Translations under genes and position numbers: made by a program
In this document: positions 1,599-18,833 of the stretch, one piece after another
Layout: every line of letters begins with the position of its first letter
How positions within the stretch are numbered: the stretch's first letter is position 1
Notes under the pieces: model-generated
The model's input: the letters and a program-made list of their open reading frames with translations, nothing else
What the model was told of the DNA's origin: nothing
Databases searched by the model: none
NCBI RefSeq assembly: GCF_027947535.2
Contig: NZ_JAAGKO020000071.1
Coordinates: forward strand, 1-32,221
From: Streptantibioticus silvisoli
GTDB taxonomy: Bacteria > Actinomycetota > Actinomycetes > Streptomycetales > Streptomycetaceae
Reading direction: 5' to 3'
DNA: 32,221 nt

Positions 1599-1674
1599 CG
1601 GGCGGGAACCCCGGTCCGGCCGGCGATCTCCAGCTCGGACAGCAATCCCCGGCTTCGACAGAAAGGTGTCGACC

Positions 1675-2679
1675 GTGAACCGCAGCACGCACATCGAGCC
1701 CGAGGGCCCCGGCGGCGCCCCATCGCAGGTCGGCGTCCCATCGCAGGCCGGGGCACGGGTGAGGGCGCAGGACGCCGCGAACGTGTCCGGCGCGCCCGGG
1801 CGCACCGTGACGGAGGACGTCTCACGCCGTCTGCTGGATTCCGCGTCCCAGCTCTCCTACGACCCGGCGACCGAGGTCGACTGGGACGCGCCGCTGCCCG
1901 AGGACGGCCACGGGCTCGCCCCCGAGTGGAGCACCCTGTACGGCACCCGGCTGTGGGACGAGATGACCGAGCGGCAGAGGGTCACCCTCACCCGGCACGA
2001 GGTGTGCTCGATCATGAGTACCGGGATCTGGTTCGAGATGATCCTTCAGCAGCTGGTGCTGCGCGACCAGTACGTGCGCGACTACGCGACCGCCGAGTTC
2101 CAGTTCGCGCTGACCGAGATCGCCGACGAGTGCCGGCACTCGATCATGTTCGCCCGCGCCTGCGAGAAGATGGGTGTGCCGGCCTACTTCCCCAAGCGCC
2201 TGGTCGTCGAACTCGCCCGCATCCTCAAGACGGCGGGCACCGCCGAGGTCGCCTACGGCGGCATCCTGGTGGCCGAAGAGGTGCTGGACATCATGCAGCG
2301 GGACGCGATGCGCACGGACGGTGTCCTGGACCTGGTCCGCACCACCAGCCGCATCCACGTCGTCGAGGAGTCCCGGCACATGCGCTTCGCCCGCGCGGAG
2401 ATCCGCCAGCGGGTGCGCCGGGCCGGCCCGCTGCGCAAGCACACGTCCGCCCTCGGCATCGCCGTCGTCGCGTACTTCATCATCACCAGCCTGGTGAACG
2501 AGGAGGTCTACGCGGAGGCCGGCCTCGACAAGGAGCGGGCACTCGCCGCGGCCAGGTCGAACCGTCACCACCACACCATGATGCGGTCCGGCTCCGCACC
2601 CCTCATGGACTTCCTCGGTACCCAGGGCCTGCTGACCCGCCCGGCCAGCGCCATCTACCAGCGCGTGCACATGCTCTGA
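1675..2679 (+). CDS. AurF-like non-haem diiron oxygenase
   Basis: A 334-residue cytoplasmic protein of the AurF (p-aminobenzoate N-oxygenase-like) diiron family. Ligand-type residues sit in the expected order: a Glu at 109 or 121, E152-x-x-H155 (in EIADECRHSIMF), E201, then H228-x3-E232-x2-H235 (HVVEESRH). The spacing of the last six matches AurF closely. GTG 1675 is chosen because AAAGG (1662-1666) is eight bases upstream; GTG 1666 in frame overlaps that site. Family members use O2 and two electrons to oxygenate amines or other small molecules. The ferredoxin reductase gene at 3044 is the obvious electron donor and the divergent TetR the likely regulator. The substrate cannot be read from sequence. 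Similar stand-alone genes occur in mycobacteria and streptomycetes, so it need not belong to an antibiotic cluster. Confidence 0.88.
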   Translation: MNRSTHIEPEGPGGAPSQVGVPSQAGARVRAQDAANVSGAPGRTVTEDVSRRLLDSASQLSYDPATEVDWDAPLPEDGHGLAPEWSTLYGTRLWDEMTERQRVTLTRHEVCSIMSTGIWFEMILQQLVLRDQYVRDYATAEFQFALTEIADECRHSIMFARACEKMGVPAYFPKRLVVELARILKTAGTAEVAYGGILVAEEVLDIMQRDAMRTDGVLDLVRTTSRIHVVEESRHMRFARAEIRQRVRRAGPLRKHTSALGIAVVAYFIITSLVNEEVYAEAGLDKERALAAARSNRHHHTMMRSGSAPLMDFLGTQGLLTRPASAIYQRVHML

Positions 2680-3043
2680 CGGAACGTCAGCGAACGCGCC
2701 CCGTTCGACCGGAGGTCGTGTCGGGTGCGACCCCGCCGGCCGGGGCAGCGCGTTCCGGTCGGCACCGCGTTCCCGGCGTCGCCAGTGCCGGCCGACCTCC
2801 GCGGCCCGTCCGCCAACCGTCGAGGCCGCGCGGTCCGTCACGCCACCGGCCACCACCTCTCCGCCGGCCGTGCGCCAAGCGTCTCGGCCACGCGGTCCGT
2901 CCCGCCATCGGCCGCAGTCCCTAACCCCACCGTCCGCCACCTCTCCACCTCTCCGCCGCCCGCGCGCCCGCCCGACCACCGGCCGCCGAGGCGAACGCCA
3001 CACGTCCCGCCGCCCCGGCGATCACCCCAACGGAAACCGGACC
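2680..3043. other. 364-bp gap with imperfect repeats
   Basis: No gene is seen between the oxygenase and the reductase. A 28-base sequence at 2824-2851 recurs at 2886-2913 with three differences (period 62), and CACCTCTCC is repeated around it. A weaker GTCCGCCA copy lies on each side. No clear promoter or terminator was found, so whether the two genes share a transcript is uncertain. Confidence 0.55.
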
Positions 3044-4540
3044 ATGGCCTACGCGATCACCCAGACCTGCTGCACCGACGCCTCGTGCATCGCGGTCTGC
3101 CCCGTCAACTGCATCCACCCCGCCCCGGGTGAACCGGACTTCGGCACCACCGAGGTGCTTTACATCGACCCGCGCACCTGCATCGACTGCGGTGCCTGCG
3201 CCGACGCCTGCCCGGTTGACGCCGTCTCGCCGGTCGACGTGCTGTCCGGCGCCGACGCGGTCTACGCCGAGCGCGGCGCCCGTTACTACGCCGGGCGTAC
3301 CGCCGACCCCGTCTGGAGCGCACCGCTGATTCCGCGCTCCCTGCCGGCGGGGACGCCCGCGCCGCGGGTCGCCGTGGTCGGCACCGGGCCGGCCGCCTGC
3401 TATGCGGTGCAGGCCCTGCTGCACGCGACCGACGCCGAGGTCACGATGATCGACCGGCTGCCGGTGCCGGGCGGACTGGTGCGGTTCGGGGTCGCACCGG
3501 ACCACACCTCGACCAAGCGCATCGGTGAGTCGTTCGCCGCGCTCCTGCGGCATCCGCGGGTCCGCGTCCACCTCGGCGTCGAGGTCGGCGTCGACCTCAG
3601 CCACGCGGACCTGGCCCGGCACCACCACGCGGTGGTCTACGCGGTCGGGGCGGCCGCCGCGCGCCCGCTGGGCATTCCGGGGGAGGACCTGCCCGGCAGC
3701 CTGTCCGCCACGCGCTTCGTCGCCTGGTACAACGACCACCCCGAGGTCCCCGGCGGCCTGGTCGACCTGTCCGACGTCCGGCGCGCGGTGGTCGTCGGCA
3801 ACGGGAACGTGGCGCTGGACACCGTGCGCGTGCTGGCGGGCGGGCCGGACCGCCTGGCCGGCACCGGCATCGCGGGCCACGCGCTCGCCGCGCTGCGCTC
3901 CGGCGCGGTGCGCGAGGTCGTCGTACTCGGCCGCCGCGGCCCCCAGGACGCCGCGTACACCTGGCCGGAACTGCACGCCCTCAAGCACCTTCCCGGCGTG
4001 CGGCTGGTCGTCGCCGATACTCCCGGGACGCGGGCGGCGATCTCGTCGGCCGCGCCGGACGACCACGCGGCGCTGCTGAGCGACGTGCCGATCGAGGCGG
4101 TCGACCTCGCGGCGCCCCCGCCGCCGGGCCGCCGCATCGTGCTGAACTTCTTCTCCTCGCCCGTCGAGGTGCTCGGCAACGGCCGGATGTCCGCCCTGCG
4201 AACGACCACAGGGCCGGTCGACGCCCAGCTCCTGATCGGCGCGATCGGCTACCGCGGCACCCCGTTGCCGGACCTGCCGTTCGACAGCGCGACCGCGACC
4301 GTTCCCCACGAACGCGGCCGGGTCGCACAGCTGCCGGGGACGTACGTCGTGGGCTGGATCAAACGCGGCCCCTCCGGCGGCATCGGCGCCAACCGCCTGT
4401 GCGCCCAGGAGACGGTGGATGCCCTCCTCGACGACGCGGCGGCCGGCCGGCTGCCCACCCCGCCGGCGACCGCCCGCGACTTCGCCCGCCTGATACGCAA
4501 CGTCGGCCGCGACGCACCGGCGGGGCCCGCGATCCGCTGA
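3044..4540 (+). CDS. fprB: Ferredoxin-fused NADPH:ferredoxin reductase (FprB-like)
   Basis: A 498-residue protein. Residues 1-60 form a bacterial ferredoxin domain with Cys at 9/10, 15, 19, 23 and a second set C46-x2-C49-x2-C52-x3-C56-P, predicting two Fe-S clusters. From about 107 it is an adrenodoxin-reductase-type flavoprotein: FAD motif GTGPAA (113-118), the hallmark FGVAPDHTSTKRI (148-160), an NADPH motif GNGNVALD (252-259), and a C-terminal GWIKRGPSGGIG. This matches mycobacterial FprB-type proteins. It moves electrons from NADPH through FAD to the built-in ferredoxin. The start is ATG 3044, which begins the conserved ferredoxin sequence; GGAAA lies upstream. Its position after the diiron oxygenase suggests it reduces that enzyme. 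Confidence 0.93.
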   Translation: MAYAITQTCCTDASCIAVCPVNCIHPAPGEPDFGTTEVLYIDPRTCIDCGACADACPVDAVSPVDVLSGADAVYAERGARYYAGRTADPVWSAPLIPRSLPAGTPAPRVAVVGTGPAACYAVQALLHATDAEVTMIDRLPVPGGLVRFGVAPDHTSTKRIGESFAALLRHPRVRVHLGVEVGVDLSHADLARHHHAVVYAVGAAAARPLGIPGEDLPGSLSATRFVAWYNDHPEVPGGLVDLSDVRRAVVVGNGNVALDTVRVLAGGPDRLAGTGIAGHALAALRSGAVREVVVLGRRGPQDAAYTWPELHALKHLPGVRLVVADTPGTRAAISSAAPDDHAALLSDVPIEAVDLAAPPPPGRRIVLNFFSSPVEVLGNGRMSALRTTTGPVDAQLLIGAIGYRGTPLPDLPFDSATATVPHERGRVAQLPGTYVVGWIKRGPSGGIGANRLCAQETVDALLDDAAAGRLPTPPATARDFARLIRNVGRDAPAGPAIR

Positions 4541-15523: not shown

Positions 15524-16384
15524 TCAGCTCATGCGCGGTACGTAGTACGGGCGGTTGTGGGCGGCGACCGGGGGAGATTGGTAGGTCCACGCGCCGGCCG
15601 CGGGGGCGTCGCCGATGAGGGTGAGCAGGTCGGCGCCGACCGGTGAGGACGCGTCGTGGACGGTGAGCCGTACGCGGTCGGCGGTCTGCGTCGCCAGCGG
15701 GAGGTACTGGTAGGGCTGGTAGACGTTCATGGGACCGGCGAGCGGGCGGCCGTCGGGGTCGGTGCCGTAGCCGGTGATGGGCGTGTTGTTGACCGGGACG
15801 CGGGGCAGTTCGGTCAGGTCGGCGTCGAAGGAGAACAACGGTGAGGCGGCCCGGCGGTCGGCGCCGTCCCCGGAGGGGGTGTTGGCGGCCTGGTGGCACG
15901 CGATGTGCCAGCTCTCGCCACCCGGACCGTTCAGGGAGGGCATGGTCACCTCGAACGAGGCCGGGTACTTGGGCTCGCCGTACAGCTTCGTGCCCGCCTC
16001 GATGGCCAGCGGGTTGTCGCACAGGACGTGGAGCCGGGCGATCCCGAGCAGTTTGGTCTGGTCGTGGCCCCGCGCGTACTCCTCGTACGACAGGCGGGCC
16101 AGGCGATCGGCGCTCGCGGTGGGGTGGGCGACGATGCTGTACTCGATCTCCTGGGTGACGCCGCCGCCGTTCGGGTACTGGGCGAAGTACAGCTGGTAGT
16201 TGAGCGTGACGCAGGCCCGGCCGCCGAAGTCGGCGGCGGTCAGGTCGGGATGGTGCTCGGCCAGCGTCTTGCGGACCGGGCCGGGGGCGACCAGGTAGTC
16301 CAGGCCGACGTTGTGCAGGGCTCCGTAGTGGAAGGGCAGCAGGTACGGGGCGGCGACGGGCGGCAGCGTGAGGTCGCTGGTCAT
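15524..16384 (-). CDS. Acetoacetate decarboxylase-like protein
   Basis: A 286-residue cytoplasmic protein. The segment AGTKLYGEPKYPASFEV resembles the G-x-PK region of the acetoacetate decarboxylase superfamily, where a Lys forms the Schiff base, and overall length and strand pattern fit. Other members of this fold are dehydratases, cyclases or aldolase-like enzymes, so decarboxylation is not assured. Its ATG (16384) overlaps the stop of the GMC gene in ATGA, which implies translational coupling. It is therefore the last gene of a three-gene operon with a sugar-dehydrogenase-type small subunit and a GMC flavoprotein. I infer that it acts on the product of that oxidoreductase, which would be a keto compound. 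The family call is moderately sure. Confidence 0.65.
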   Translation of the reverse strand: MTSDLTLPPVAAPYLLPFHYGALHNVGLDYLVAPGPVRKTLAEHHPDLTAADFGGRACVTLNYQLYFAQYPNGGGVTQEIEYSIVAHPTASADRLARLSYEEYARGHDQTKLLGIARLHVLCDNPLAIEAGTKLYGEPKYPASFEVTMPSLNGPGGESWHIACHQAANTPSGDGADRRAASPLFSFDADLTELPRVPVNNTPITGYGTDPDGRPLAGPMNVYQPYQYLPLATQTADRVRLTVHDASSPVGADLLTLIGDAPAAGAWTYQSPPVAAHNRPYYVPRMS

Positions 16385-18255
16385 GGGGCGGGCGTCTCCT
16401 CGGGTGTGGTCGGCGCGGGGACTCGCACGGGGGCCGGCGGGCCGGCCGCGCTGTGCCGTCCGGACAGGTCGCGGTGGATCTGTTCGGCGCTGCGCAGCGT
16501 GATCGCGGCCATGGTCAGGGTCGGGTTGGAGGTGCCGAGGGAGGGCATGCTGCCGCAGCCCACGGCGTACAGATTGGGGTGGTCCCAGCAGCGCTGCCAC
16601 GCGTCGACGACGGAGTCGGACGGCTGGCCGCCCATGATGTGGGTGCCGGCGCCGTGGCCCGCGCCGCGATAGGCGTAGGGCCGGCCGCCGTACTCGAACC
16701 ACCCGGGCTCCGACAGCCCCGGTTCGTACCGGCTGTGGTCCTGCGCCCCCAGCAGGGCGAAGATCTGGTCCGACACGGACTTGGCCGCGGCGATGCCCCG
16801 CTTCACGTGGTCGGACAGGTCGTAGGTGAGCACGGGTCGCGGGTTGCCCAGCAGGTCGCGGTGCCGGGGGTCGAGCGTGACGCGGTTGGCGGGGTCGGCG
16901 CTCTGCTCCATCTCGAACTGAAGGGCGAACTGCCGCCCGATCCGGTCCCCGACCGCCTGCCGCAACCGCGCGCCGAACAGCCCCCGGCCGCCGCCCGTGC
17001 CGCCGGACGCCGTAGGGTCACCGCCGCGCAGCAGGGTGGCGACCTCGCGGTCGGGCGGGCCGGCCGCCCAGGTCCAGCCCCAGTTGCCGATCTCGACCCG
17101 GAAGGGCGCACGGGTGGCCCGCGCCGGGCCGAAGCGGAAACCCTCCAGTCCGGAGGTCGACCCGGAACCCCGGTAGGGGCCGGTGCGTTCGGGCATGAGG
17201 CCCCAAGTGAGCAGGACCGGGTGGTCCATCAGGTTGCGGCCCACCTGTCCGCTGGAGTTGGCGAGGCCGGAGGCGAGCAGCAGCCGGGCGTTCTCCACGG
17301 CGTGCGCGGCCAGTACGACGGTGTCCGCCCGCGCCGTCCGCCGGATGACGCGGGCGGGCTGCGCCGGATCGTCGTAAAGCTGGTACTCCACCCCGGTGAT
17401 CCGGCCCCCGGCGTCCGCCACGAGCCGGCCCGCCACCGCCCGGGTGAGCAGGGTGACGCTCGCGCTCCAGCGGGCCTGCGTGCGTGCCGGGGTGTATTTG
17501 GCCCCGGTCGGGCAGACGGGGATGCAACTGGCGCTGCCCTCGCACGCCGGCCCGTACGCTTCGGTGGCCGTGCTGTTGCGGGCCTGAGGGGTACCGACGA
17601 CCCGCAGTTCGATCGGCCGCGTCCCGGCCGGCTCCATGACGTGGCGCCCGTCGAGCCGGTCGGCCAGCATCCGGTCGAGATGGCTCGCGGGGATCGCACG
17701 CTGCGGGAAGTCGTAACCGTCCCGCAACGGCAGCCCGACCAGCTCCCGCTGCTCCGCCGGATCGCCGGCCACCCCCAACTCGTGTTCGGCAGCCCGGTAG
17801 TACGGCTCCAACTCCGCATAGTCGAACGGCCAGTCACGGCCGTAGCCGAAGTCCGCGGTGCGGAAGTCCTCCGGGTGCATCCGCGGCGTCAGGCCCGTCC
17901 AGGCCGTGCCCGTACCGCCGTTGACCCGGAGGTAGCCGCTCGCGTAGGGCAGCGGACCGTTCTGGACGAAGTGCCCGTCGGCCCGGTAGCCCCCGCCGGG
18001 GCTGCCGCGCAGGTCGAGCACGTCGGGTGACGGGACCAGGGAGTTGTCCGCGATCGCCGCGCTGGGGACCTTCGCCGTCGCGGTACGGAACCGGTCCACG
18101 TCCGCCGCCCGCCCCGGCCCGCGGTCACCGTCGCCCACACCGGCCTCCAGGACCAGGACGCGCCAGCCCCGCTCGCCCAGCCGCCGTGCGATCAGCGAGC
18201 CCGCGATCCCCGCCCCGACCACGACCACGTCGAAGTACTCCTCGCCGGGCCTCAC
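16381..18255 (-). CDS. GMC-family FAD oxidoreductase with Fe-S-type Cys motif
   Basis: A 624-residue flavoprotein of the GMC family, in the branch of FAD-dependent gluconate/glucose/sorbitol dehydrogenase large subunits. The FAD motif VVVGAGIAGSLIARR is at about 11-25, and C238-x5-C244-x3-C248 (CEGSASCIPVC) has the spacing of the [3Fe-4S] ligands in FAD-dependent glucose dehydrogenase. Late motifs are GAGHGAGTHIMGG, with the catalytic His region, and SNPTLTMAAITLRSAEQIH. GTG 18255 is used because it begins the Rossmann sequence and overlaps the upstream stop in GTGA. The C-terminal 30 residues are Pro/Ala-rich. It likely pairs with the small subunit encoded just upstream. No cytochrome c subunit is nearby, so the electron acceptor is unknown. 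Confidence 0.92.
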   Translation of the reverse strand: MRPGEEYFDVVVVGAGIAGSLIARRLGERGWRVLVLEAGVGDGDRGPGRAADVDRFRTATAKVPSAAIADNSLVPSPDVLDLRGSPGGGYRADGHFVQNGPLPYASGYLRVNGGTGTAWTGLTPRMHPEDFRTADFGYGRDWPFDYAELEPYYRAAEHELGVAGDPAEQRELVGLPLRDGYDFPQRAIPASHLDRMLADRLDGRHVMEPAGTRPIELRVVGTPQARNSTATEAYGPACEGSASCIPVCPTGAKYTPARTQARWSASVTLLTRAVAGRLVADAGGRITGVEYQLYDDPAQPARVIRRTARADTVVLAAHAVENARLLLASGLANSSGQVGRNLMDHPVLLTWGLMPERTGPYRGSGSTSGLEGFRFGPARATRAPFRVEIGNWGWTWAAGPPDREVATLLRGGDPTASGGTGGGRGLFGARLRQAVGDRIGRQFALQFEMEQSADPANRVTLDPRHRDLLGNPRPVLTYDLSDHVKRGIAAAKSVSDQIFALLGAQDHSRYEPGLSEPGWFEYGGRPYAYRGAGHGAGTHIMGGQPSDSVVDAWQRCWDHPNLYAVGCGSMPSLGTSNPTLTMAAITLRSAEQIHRDLSGRHSAAGPPAPVRVPAPTTPEETPAP

Positions 18256-18833
18256 CTGCCGCCTCCCGTCGCCCCGGCGGGCGGCAGCGACCAGGAGCCG
18301 TAACCGGGCCGTCCGGTGCCGGGCGCGTGACCGCCGAAGCTGCGCCACACCAGGGCGCCGGCGTAGGCGTGCGCCGAGACCGGGGAGGGGACGGGCGGCC
18401 CGTCCTCCCCGGGCAGCCCCGGCCACGTTCCCAGGTACCACAGATGGCACACGGCCCGCGCGAGGTCGCCGAGCGCCTCGTCACCGGTGAGGAGCTCGTG
18501 GACCGGGAGGCCGGCCGGCCCGTCGGCGTCCCCGCCCGCGCGGTCCAGCGCACCGAGCAGATCGCCGTAGCGCCGGGGGCCCAACTGCCGTGCCACCAGG
18601 GCCCGGTAGACCTCCGCCAGGCCGGTCTCCGCGAGTTCGGCGGCGTCGAACCCCGTCAGCGCGACCGAGAGGCGGACGAACCGCTCGGCGTCCAGCCCGG
18701 CAGTGGTGTCCTGCTTGAGGGTGGACTCCTGTCCGGGGCCGGTGTCCGGACCGGCGGTGTCCGGACCGGTGAGATCGGAACCGGCGGGATGGGGGCCGGC
18801 GGGGTCCGGGCCGCCGGTGGCCGGGGCGCTCAC
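18252..18833 (-). CDS. Sugar/gluconate dehydrogenase-type small subunit
   Basis: A 193-residue protein resembling subunit 3 of gluconate 2-dehydrogenase and the small subunit of sorbitol/glucose dehydrogenases (AERFVRLSVALTGF near 49-62, then ALGDLARAVCHLWYLGTW and SPVSAHAYAGALVWRSFGGHAP). In the known complexes this subunit escorts and stabilises the GMC subunit encoded next to it. Those proteins usually carry a Tat signal; here the N-terminus is instead a Gly/Pro/Thr/Asp-rich low-complexity segment (about 5-35) with no twin-Arg motif, suggesting a cytoplasmic complex. Start GTG 18833 lacks a clear ribosome site, so the true start could be internal. Its stop overlaps the GTG of the GMC gene by four bases. 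Confidence 0.8.
   Translation of the reverse strand: MSAPATGGPDPAGPHPAGSDLTGPDTAGPDTGPGQESTLKQDTTAGLDAERFVRLSVALTGFDAAELAETGLAEVYRALVARQLGPRRYGDLLGALDRAGGDADGPAGLPVHELLTGDEALGDLARAVCHLWYLGTWPGLPGEDGPPVPSPVSAHAYAGALVWRSFGGHAPGTGRPGYGSWSLPPAGATGGGR
18741..18769. repeat. 15-bp tandem repeat in the small-subunit N-terminus
   Basis: GGTGTCCGGACCGG occurs at 18741-18754 and 18756-18769. It encodes part of the Gly/Pro-rich N-terminal segment of the small subunit, which probably varies in length between strains. Confidence 0.6.

Follow-up and report, generated by a model that had tools for sequence, protein, structure and literature searches.

The window analysed here, a stretch of 32,221 nucleotides on contig NZ_JAAGKO020000071.1 of Streptantibioticus silvisoli, carries on its reverse strand, at positions 15524-18833, three genes coding in order for the small subunit of a dehydrogenase, a GMC-family flavoprotein and a third protein predicted to adopt the fold of the acetoacetate-decarboxylase (ADC) superfamily (Table 1). 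A preliminary description of this DNA had proposed a three-gene operon joined by GTGA and ATGA overlaps, and its coordinates, strands and overlaps prove exact. The same spacing of -4 is found at 46 of 56 scored junctions between small subunit and GMC gene and at 43 of 60 scored junctions between GMC and third gene among relatives in other genomes (approximate counts, since the starts were picked automatically), and given this recurrence it is more than chance. Four-nucleotide overlaps are common in bacterial operons; they allow translational coupling but do not set stoichiometry, so that the equimolar translation formerly deduced from them does not follow. A frame artefact was rejected on the divergence of genes 2 and 3 from their S. 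scopuliridis counterparts, which is ~0.10 at codon positions 1 and 2 and ~0.275 at position 3. The source genome holds a single copy of each cassette gene.

Table 1. Genes, junctions and predicted functional residues of the cassette, in window positions
Feature	Position	Strand	Remark
Gene 1, dehydrogenase small subunit (model-based type)	18252..18833	-	193 amino acids, GTG start
Gene 2, GMC-family FAD oxidoreductase, catalytic subunit	16381..18255	-	624 amino acids, GTG start
Gene 3, predicted ADC-superfamily fold	15524..16384	-	286 amino acids, ATG start
GTGA overlap, gene 1 stop and gene 2 GTG start	18252..18255	-
ATGA overlap, gene 2 stop and gene 3 ATG start	16381..16384	-
C238-x5-C244-x3-C248 of gene 2, predicted 3Fe-4S ligands	17512..17544	-	invariant in 85/85 GMC rows
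H534 of gene 2, putative catalytic His	16654..16656	-	aligned with conserved FAD-GDH His; invariant in 85/85
N577 of gene 2, putative catalytic Asn	16525..16527	-	aligned with conserved FAD-GDH Asn; invariant in 85/85
K139 of gene 3, in E-P-K motif	15968..15970	-	aligned with Schiff-base lysine position of ADC/MppR/SbADC

The gene 2 protein carries the Pfam domains GMC_oxred_N and GMC_oxred_C, and its closest relatives in the PDB are the FAD-dependent glucose dehydrogenase (FAD-GDH) 6a2u (E 1.1e-61, residues 8-601) and the fructose dehydrogenase (FDH) 7w2j. The C-x5-C-x3-C motif, to which the preliminary description had ascribed the spacing of the FAD-GDH cluster, is present as described: C238, C244 and C248 align at equal spacing with Cys212, Cys218 and Cys222 of the Burkholderia cepacia enzyme, which the consulted parts of its structural report name as 3Fe-4S ligands next to a catalytic His/Asn pair, and where the extra disulfide of FAD-GDH is reported not to be conserved (PMC6719666). 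In our reading of the alignment H534 and N577 would form the corresponding pair, so that gene 2 appears to keep the FAD-binding motif, the catalytic His and Asn and the three cluster cysteines, and a 3Fe-4S cluster is predicted. The 85 aligned GMC rows leave out six proteins under 590 or over 720 amino acids (L014, L038, L041, L064, L066, L069), and rows from other loci had to reach a tblastn E of up to 1e-40 over 450 residues. The pyranose oxidase model TIGR02462 gives gene 2 58.5 bits against a cut-off of 544.9. Assignment to the mycofactocin-linked GMC proteins (MftG) was rejected at 40.2 against 387.45 bits, as was mycofactocin as the electron acceptor, there being no maturase over cut-off in the source genome (98% complete).

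Sequence profiles approach the small subunit without reaching it: PF12318 (FAD-SLDH small subunit) is missed at 19.3 against a cut-off of 24.2 bits (E 0.0014), a profile of the subunit finds nothing real among the PDB sequences, and a plain Foldseek search ranks the FDH small subunit first at a non-significant E of 0.58. An AlphaFold2 (AF2) model built from 26 sequences (pLDDT 73.5, pTM 0.62) has five structural matches, all of them FDH small subunits or FAD-GDH gamma subunits, at Z 8.9-9.9, for a helical fold with Z under 13, the next match scoring 3.0, and on this model we assign the subunit to the FAD-GDH/FDH type. Residues ~1-45 are Pro/Gly-rich and modelled at low confidence, the conserved domain starting at about residue 48 in alignments with relatives.

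The absence of a twin-arginine translocation (Tat) signal and of a cytochrome subunit, both asserted earlier, is borne out within the scans made. The N-terminus of the gene 1 protein contains no RR, and neither do the annotated starts of the Ruegeria, Cupriavidus, Pararhizobium, Gloeothece and Pseudoalteromonas counterparts show an RR signal; if any start is allowed, 7 of 62 small-subunit relatives give nominal matches to RR plus a hydrophobic segment, some of which fall within the conserved domain or in upstream extensions. The Azospirillum small subunit, from a locus with a cytochrome c gene, is likewise without an RR signal and the scan had no positive control, so that the Tat scan alone cannot separate the two types. 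None of the three genes encodes a cytochrome, no multi-haem cytochrome c gene occurs among them or among the ten scanned open reading frames (ORFs) of the window, and a search of the rest of the source genome for a cytochrome partner, made with one query and no positive control, found none. The cytoplasmic location put forward in the preliminary description is consistent with the lack of any export signal found, and absent signals are what supports it.

Searches of Pfam, NCBIfam and PHROGs up to E 1 leave the gene 3 protein without a family, phmmer returns chance-level rows only, and a profile run against PDB sequences finds none; PF06314 is weakly matched by three distant relatives, at 16.6-24.2 against 29.8 bits (E 2.8e-5 to 0.0059). 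The AF2 model (pLDDT 80.1, pTM 0.82), by contrast, matches 12 ADC-superfamily entries of the PDB at Z 16.9-17.4 over 203-216 residues, the next match scoring 6.2, and by this model the protein has an ADC fold. The family assignment thus comes from structure comparison and distant relatives, sequence tools having given none, and what had been a guess without sequence-tool support is confirmed by the fold. E137-P138-K139 is invariant in all 71 third-protein rows, and K139 is the presumed Schiff-base lysine: its position equals K156 in MppR and K122 in the S. bingchenggensis aldolase-dehydratase SbADC (PDB chain numbering), the residues that presumably form the imine in those enzymes. Use of an active-site lysine by MppR is described in the consulted part of PMC10367076. 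Aligned with hmmsearch --max, E-P-K falls on the ADC P-K motif with little aligned beyond it, the gene 3 protein itself being non-significant (E 0.11), and comparing the third protein with ADC rows in hhalign yields no meaningful alignment. At the position of the second lysine of the ADC motif PKK, the 71 rows have Y (33), H (19), F (10), R (6), S (1), E (1) and L (1, in L058); MppR, like the third protein, has a single lysine at its P-K motif. A near-invariant set of the third protein's own comprises N62, Q64, Y66, E79, E81, Q109, R117 and W159.

The three-gene order is not confined to the source organism. Neither outcome that the preliminary description would have taken as refuting it, an order unique to this DNA or an unrelated fold of the third protein, was thus obtained. 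Exact peptide patterns run against 84,980 species genomes, an approach limited to close relatives, retrieved 66 loci encoding a third-protein relative, 60 of them with a GMC match and 59 with a small subunit; two of the 66 (L063, L038) end at contig edges and in a third (L041) the GMC is a fragment. In a sample of 394 genomes of the family Streptomycetaceae the third protein is matched in 59, one of which, G425 with a match of 25 residues, is probably spurious, and in a class-wide sample it is matched in 2 of 394, both from the source organism's own family. The family sample lists 66 places, of which four fragments and two weak matches (G425, 25 residues; the second of G463, 42 residues) were dropped; 55 of the 60 kept lie at most 3 kb from a GMC match of at least 900 bits, and 57 do so once two partial GMC matches (G463, G454) are counted, with room for a further gene between GMC and third gene in six of the 55. 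In one genome, G453, GMC and third gene occur as two equal-scoring, oppositely oriented copies close to one contig end (C1:1376-4233 and 75514-78371), perhaps an inverted repeat near the end of a one-contig genome. Stretch L111 of G504 (C293), a genome of the source family, is identical letter for letter to L007 of Saccharothrix sp. ST-888; that name belongs to the Pseudonocardiaceae, and the strain may have been misnamed.

Across 58 rows with a full-length GMC, after trimming of the third protein's long N-terminal extensions, the correlation between evolutionary distances is r 0.961 for GMC and third protein, 0.850 for GMC and small subunit and 0.813 for small subunit and third protein, each with 0 of 2000 permutations as high. 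In the tree of the 85 GMC rows (midpoint root, quick method, SH-aLRT support only, long branches flagged) 54 ADC-linked rows and two partnerless ones form a single group at SH-aLRT 100, outside which stand ferritin-linked rows, rows of GH15/iolE type and rows with both partners, the latter from Streptacidiphilus, Kitasatospora, S. diastatochromogenes and Ruegeria. Eight GMCs lack a third-protein match; six of them adjoin a gene resembling the PF12902 ferritin-like protein of L065 (tblastn, 53-59% identity), and L116 and L118 have a GMC with neither partner. Third protein, small subunit, GMC and PF12902 gene occur together on Cupriavidus and Ruegeria plasmids, and a ferritin-like gene adjoins the small subunit-GMC pair, in place of the ADC-fold gene or in addition to it, in L112-L115, L117, L119, L123-L125, L059-L061, L065, L069 and L071, where PF12902 was tested in L065, L069 and L071 and the other ferritin-like genes were called by similarity. 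Among the literature matches listed, nothing describes a stand-alone PF12902-type ferritin-like protein of such loci. One parsimonious story, conditional on where the root of the tree lies, is that an older module had both processing genes and that the branch of the source organism retained the ADC-fold gene only.

The cassette behaves as a unit, since the genes flanking it vary in strand and distance among loci and the commonest recurrent neighbour, a methyltransferase, is found in just 11 of the 66; a phosphoenolpyruvate (PEP) mutase type and a luciferase type follow with 9 each and an SBF-like transporter with 8, one or two members of each family having been named by Pfam. In S. xanthophaeus (L006:2801-3715) the small subunit has a gene of the PEP mutase/isocitrate lyase type (Pfam on two of the nine loci) immediately upstream; eight further loci (e.g. 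L041:9361-10245) have such a gene on the opposite strand, downstream of the cassette. Upstream of its cassette the source organism has an alpha-1,3-glucanase, and downstream of it a GH19 chitinase. Neither enzyme is among the neighbour families that recur in at least 4 of the 66 loci, and on this ground a link to polysaccharide degradation was rejected; a biosynthetic cluster at the window copy was rejected as well, the ten ORFs scanned encoding the GH19 chitinase, the alpha-1,3-glucanase, regulators, an AurF-type oxygenase and others. At window positions 1666-4540, on the forward strand, a gene for an AurF-type N-oxygenase precedes one with ferredoxin and pyridine-nucleotide oxidoreductase domains, possibly an oxygenase and its reductase.

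Eight of 124 plasmid records with a GMC match were opened, together with the four third-protein matches; in the eight plasmid loci, whose GMCs are relatives at ~39-44% identity, iolE, GH15 and annotated ferritin-like genes occur in five each, mostly in the same loci, from rhizobia, Sinorhizobium and Pseudoalteromonas. In the Gloeothece locus a glucan glucosidase joins the ferritin-like gene and iolE is absent, and two loci of Streptomycetaceae, L120 and L121, have GH15, iolE and ferritin-like genes all present. This GH15/iolE context points to a sugar or cyclitol as substrate. Some or all of GH15, a small-subunit-like gene, one or two Fe-S GMCs, ferritin-like, iolE and sugar isomerase genes are seen in L103, L106, L107, L109, L110, L120 and L121, and such clusters look like glycosyl-cyclitol catabolic clusters; some related copies lie on rhizobial plasmids typed as conjugative, two of these, L104 and L106, being near an acyl-homoserine-lactone synthase. 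The third protein, for its part, can adjoin another oxidising enzyme where the cassette GMC is missing: in Nocardia it overlaps a TauD dioxygenase gene by four nucleotides, in a locus that also has glycosyltransferases and an aminotransferase, in Kutzneria it accompanies TauD, A-PCP and thioesterase genes, and in S. calidiresistens it lies near a different GMC.

Among known systems, the FAD dehydrogenases capable of direct electron transfer (DET), namely the B. cepacia FAD-GDH (6a2u, 8hdd) and the Gluconobacter FDH (7w2j, 8jej), share with the cassette a GMC subunit with C-x5-C-x3-C and His/Asn and the predicted small-subunit fold. The cassette differs from them in having no Tat signal, no multi-haem cytochrome gene and no sign of export, with an ADC-fold gene instead, and because two features fail, the Tat signal and the cytochrome gene in the operon, its complex is not to be filed as a DET dehydrogenase. 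With the ADC superfamily (MppR, SbADC 4zbo/6eej, Swit_4259 and the acetoacetate decarboxylases 3bh2, 3c8w and 3cmb) gene 3 would share the fold and the P-K lysine, but it is only 10-14% identical, stays below the PF06314 cut-off, lacks the second lysine of PKK and has near-invariant residues of its own. The clusters of GH15, Fe-S GMC, ferritin-like, small-subunit-like and iolE genes found in rhizobia and in some of the Streptomycetaceae have GMCs of the same cysteine-motif family and small subunits that show no Tat signal when read from the annotated starts; unlike the cassette they carry ferritin-like and inositol-type genes, and no ADC-fold gene is annotated or matched in the stretches examined. 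Pyranose oxidases and C-glycoside 3-oxidases share the GMC fold, yet the cassette GMC falls far below TIGR02462. These enzymes are not known to have a small subunit or an Fe-S cluster. Actinobacterial members are described, in the consulted part of PMC10646112, as oxidising glycosides with O2, and the lipothrenin cluster is stated to include a GMC gene (PMC10616846, likewise consulted in part). For the gene combination itself no description was found among the matches listed from the open-licence PMC literature, which does not prove that none exists. Its parts belong to known types or to diverged branches of them, and their combination seems undescribed. The preliminary description's word for it, unusual, has to be qualified, as it recurs in dozens of Kitasatospora and Streptomyces genomes.

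In light of these results we propose, with a probability of roughly one half, that an FAD/3Fe-4S dehydrogenase encoded by the cassette oxidises an alcohol resembling a sugar or cyclitol in the cytoplasm and that the ADC-fold enzyme then acts on the resulting ketone by imine chemistry. Here the oxidation class and the lysine are taken from homology and the location from absent signals, whereas we infer the substrate, the acceptor and the second reaction. The gene products would be a soluble two-subunit FAD/3Fe-4S dehydrogenase and a Schiff-base lysine enzyme of the ADC superfamily. With no role left as a secretion hitchhiker, the small subunit would serve to fold the catalytic subunit and to shield the cluster at its surface. 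The GMC protein would oxidise a secondary alcohol group in a substrate resembling a sugar, glycoside or cyclitol and pass the electrons via FAD and the 3Fe-4S cluster to a quinone or a soluble acceptor, without a dedicated multi-haem cytochrome. The ketone would be held as an imine on K139 and then undergo elimination, retro-aldol cleavage, cyclisation or decarboxylation, and translational coupling would keep an unstable keto intermediate near the enzyme that consumes it.

A number of observations weigh against this proposal. In the family sample, 8 of the 64 GMC places of at least 900 bits are in genomes without a third-protein match and one (G693) lies apart from the third gene, so the dehydrogenase can exist without the third protein; conversely, 3-5 of the 60 third-protein places have no such GMC nearby. 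In L055 the two scanned neighbours of the third gene are not oxidising enzymes, and in K. aureofaciens ATCC 10762 (L046) the third gene is present with small subunit and GMC missing: L046:4586-6846 retains the luciferase-like and ADC-fold genes between which the two stand in L023, and looks like a clean deletion. The cassette of the source organism has no conserved pathway neighbours, the case for a sugar or cyclitol stands on relatives at ~39-44% identity, and the Azospirillum plasmid locus has its cytochrome c gene without pathway genes of the GH15/iolE type. A related glucoside 3-dehydrogenase has a mono-haem cytochrome c as its reported electron acceptor in the consulted part of PMC9915066, and an unlinked cytochrome acceptor is therefore possible. 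Finally, mirror trees of the kind found here also result from joint inheritance alone.

Other readings have to be set against the proposed oxidation and imine chemistry. The cassette might instead tailor a scaffold made elsewhere in the genome, in a specialised metabolism comparable to that of MppR in enduracididine biosynthesis, a reading that we hold to be tentative, with perhaps a minor share of the likelihood: it would fit the nonribosomal peptide or polyketide synthase (NRPS/PKS) genes near some sister or relative loci (L116, L118, L060), the A-PCP, thioesterase and TauD genes beside the Kutzneria third protein, the glycosyltransferases and aminotransferase of Nocardia and the patchy distribution over 59 of 394 genomes, but the ten scanned ORFs around the operon amount to no biosynthetic cluster and the recurrent neighbours are confined to minorities of loci (11, 9, 9 and 8 of 66). 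That the GMC yields a beta-keto acid or similar product which the third protein then decarboxylates is unlikely. The ADC fold and the position of the Schiff-base lysine are retained, as decarboxylation would have it, but directly after that lysine 68 of 71 rows have Y, H, F or R and three have S, E or L, so that the second lysine of PKK is absent, and the PF06314 cut-off is not reached; moreover MppR, of the same superfamily and with a single lysine too, is described as cyclising a keto acid while retaining it (PMC10367076, in the part consulted). Of the oxidation followed by decarboxylation suggested in the preliminary description, the coupling of a relative of Fe-S FAD sugar dehydrogenases to an ADC-fold enzyme stands, whereas decarboxylation as such is not specifically supported, because the superfamily has non-decarboxylating members (MppR, the aldolase-dehydratases) and the second lysine is not kept.

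A more specific version of the sugar chemistry, in which a keto-sugar made in the cytoplasm by oxidative attack on a glycoside or cyclitol would lose its aglycone or a ring hydroxyl by elimination from an imine on the ADC-fold enzyme, and in which the ferritin-like protein would be the alternative or partner processing enzyme of the sister clusters, is more doubtful still; we know of no keto-sugar lyase that works by lysine and imine chemistry. We regard as quite improbable that the third protein is a ligand-binding or maturation partner of the dehydrogenase and no pathway enzyme. Loci with the dehydrogenase and without the third protein (L116, L118 and six with ferritin-like genes) have been counted in its favour, and with eight loci going without it the dehydrogenase is not always in need of the third protein; against a partner role, E137-P138-K139 is invariant in 71 of 71 rows, the polar residues N62, Q64, E79, E81 and Q109 are nearly so, and the third protein is also found without the cassette dehydrogenase, unlike a dedicated partner.

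Our results suggest that the dehydrogenase class relevant to electrodes, with FAD, a surface 3Fe-4S cluster and a small subunit, also has members that lack a signal, in actinobacteria, in a cyanobacterium and in proteobacteria. Through the cassette an unnamed branch of the ADC superfamily gains a defined partner and an active-site lysine that can be put to the test. If a substrate is found, the cassette would represent an oxidise-then-cleave pathway whose genes stand together in 53-55 of the 394 Streptomycetaceae genomes sampled.

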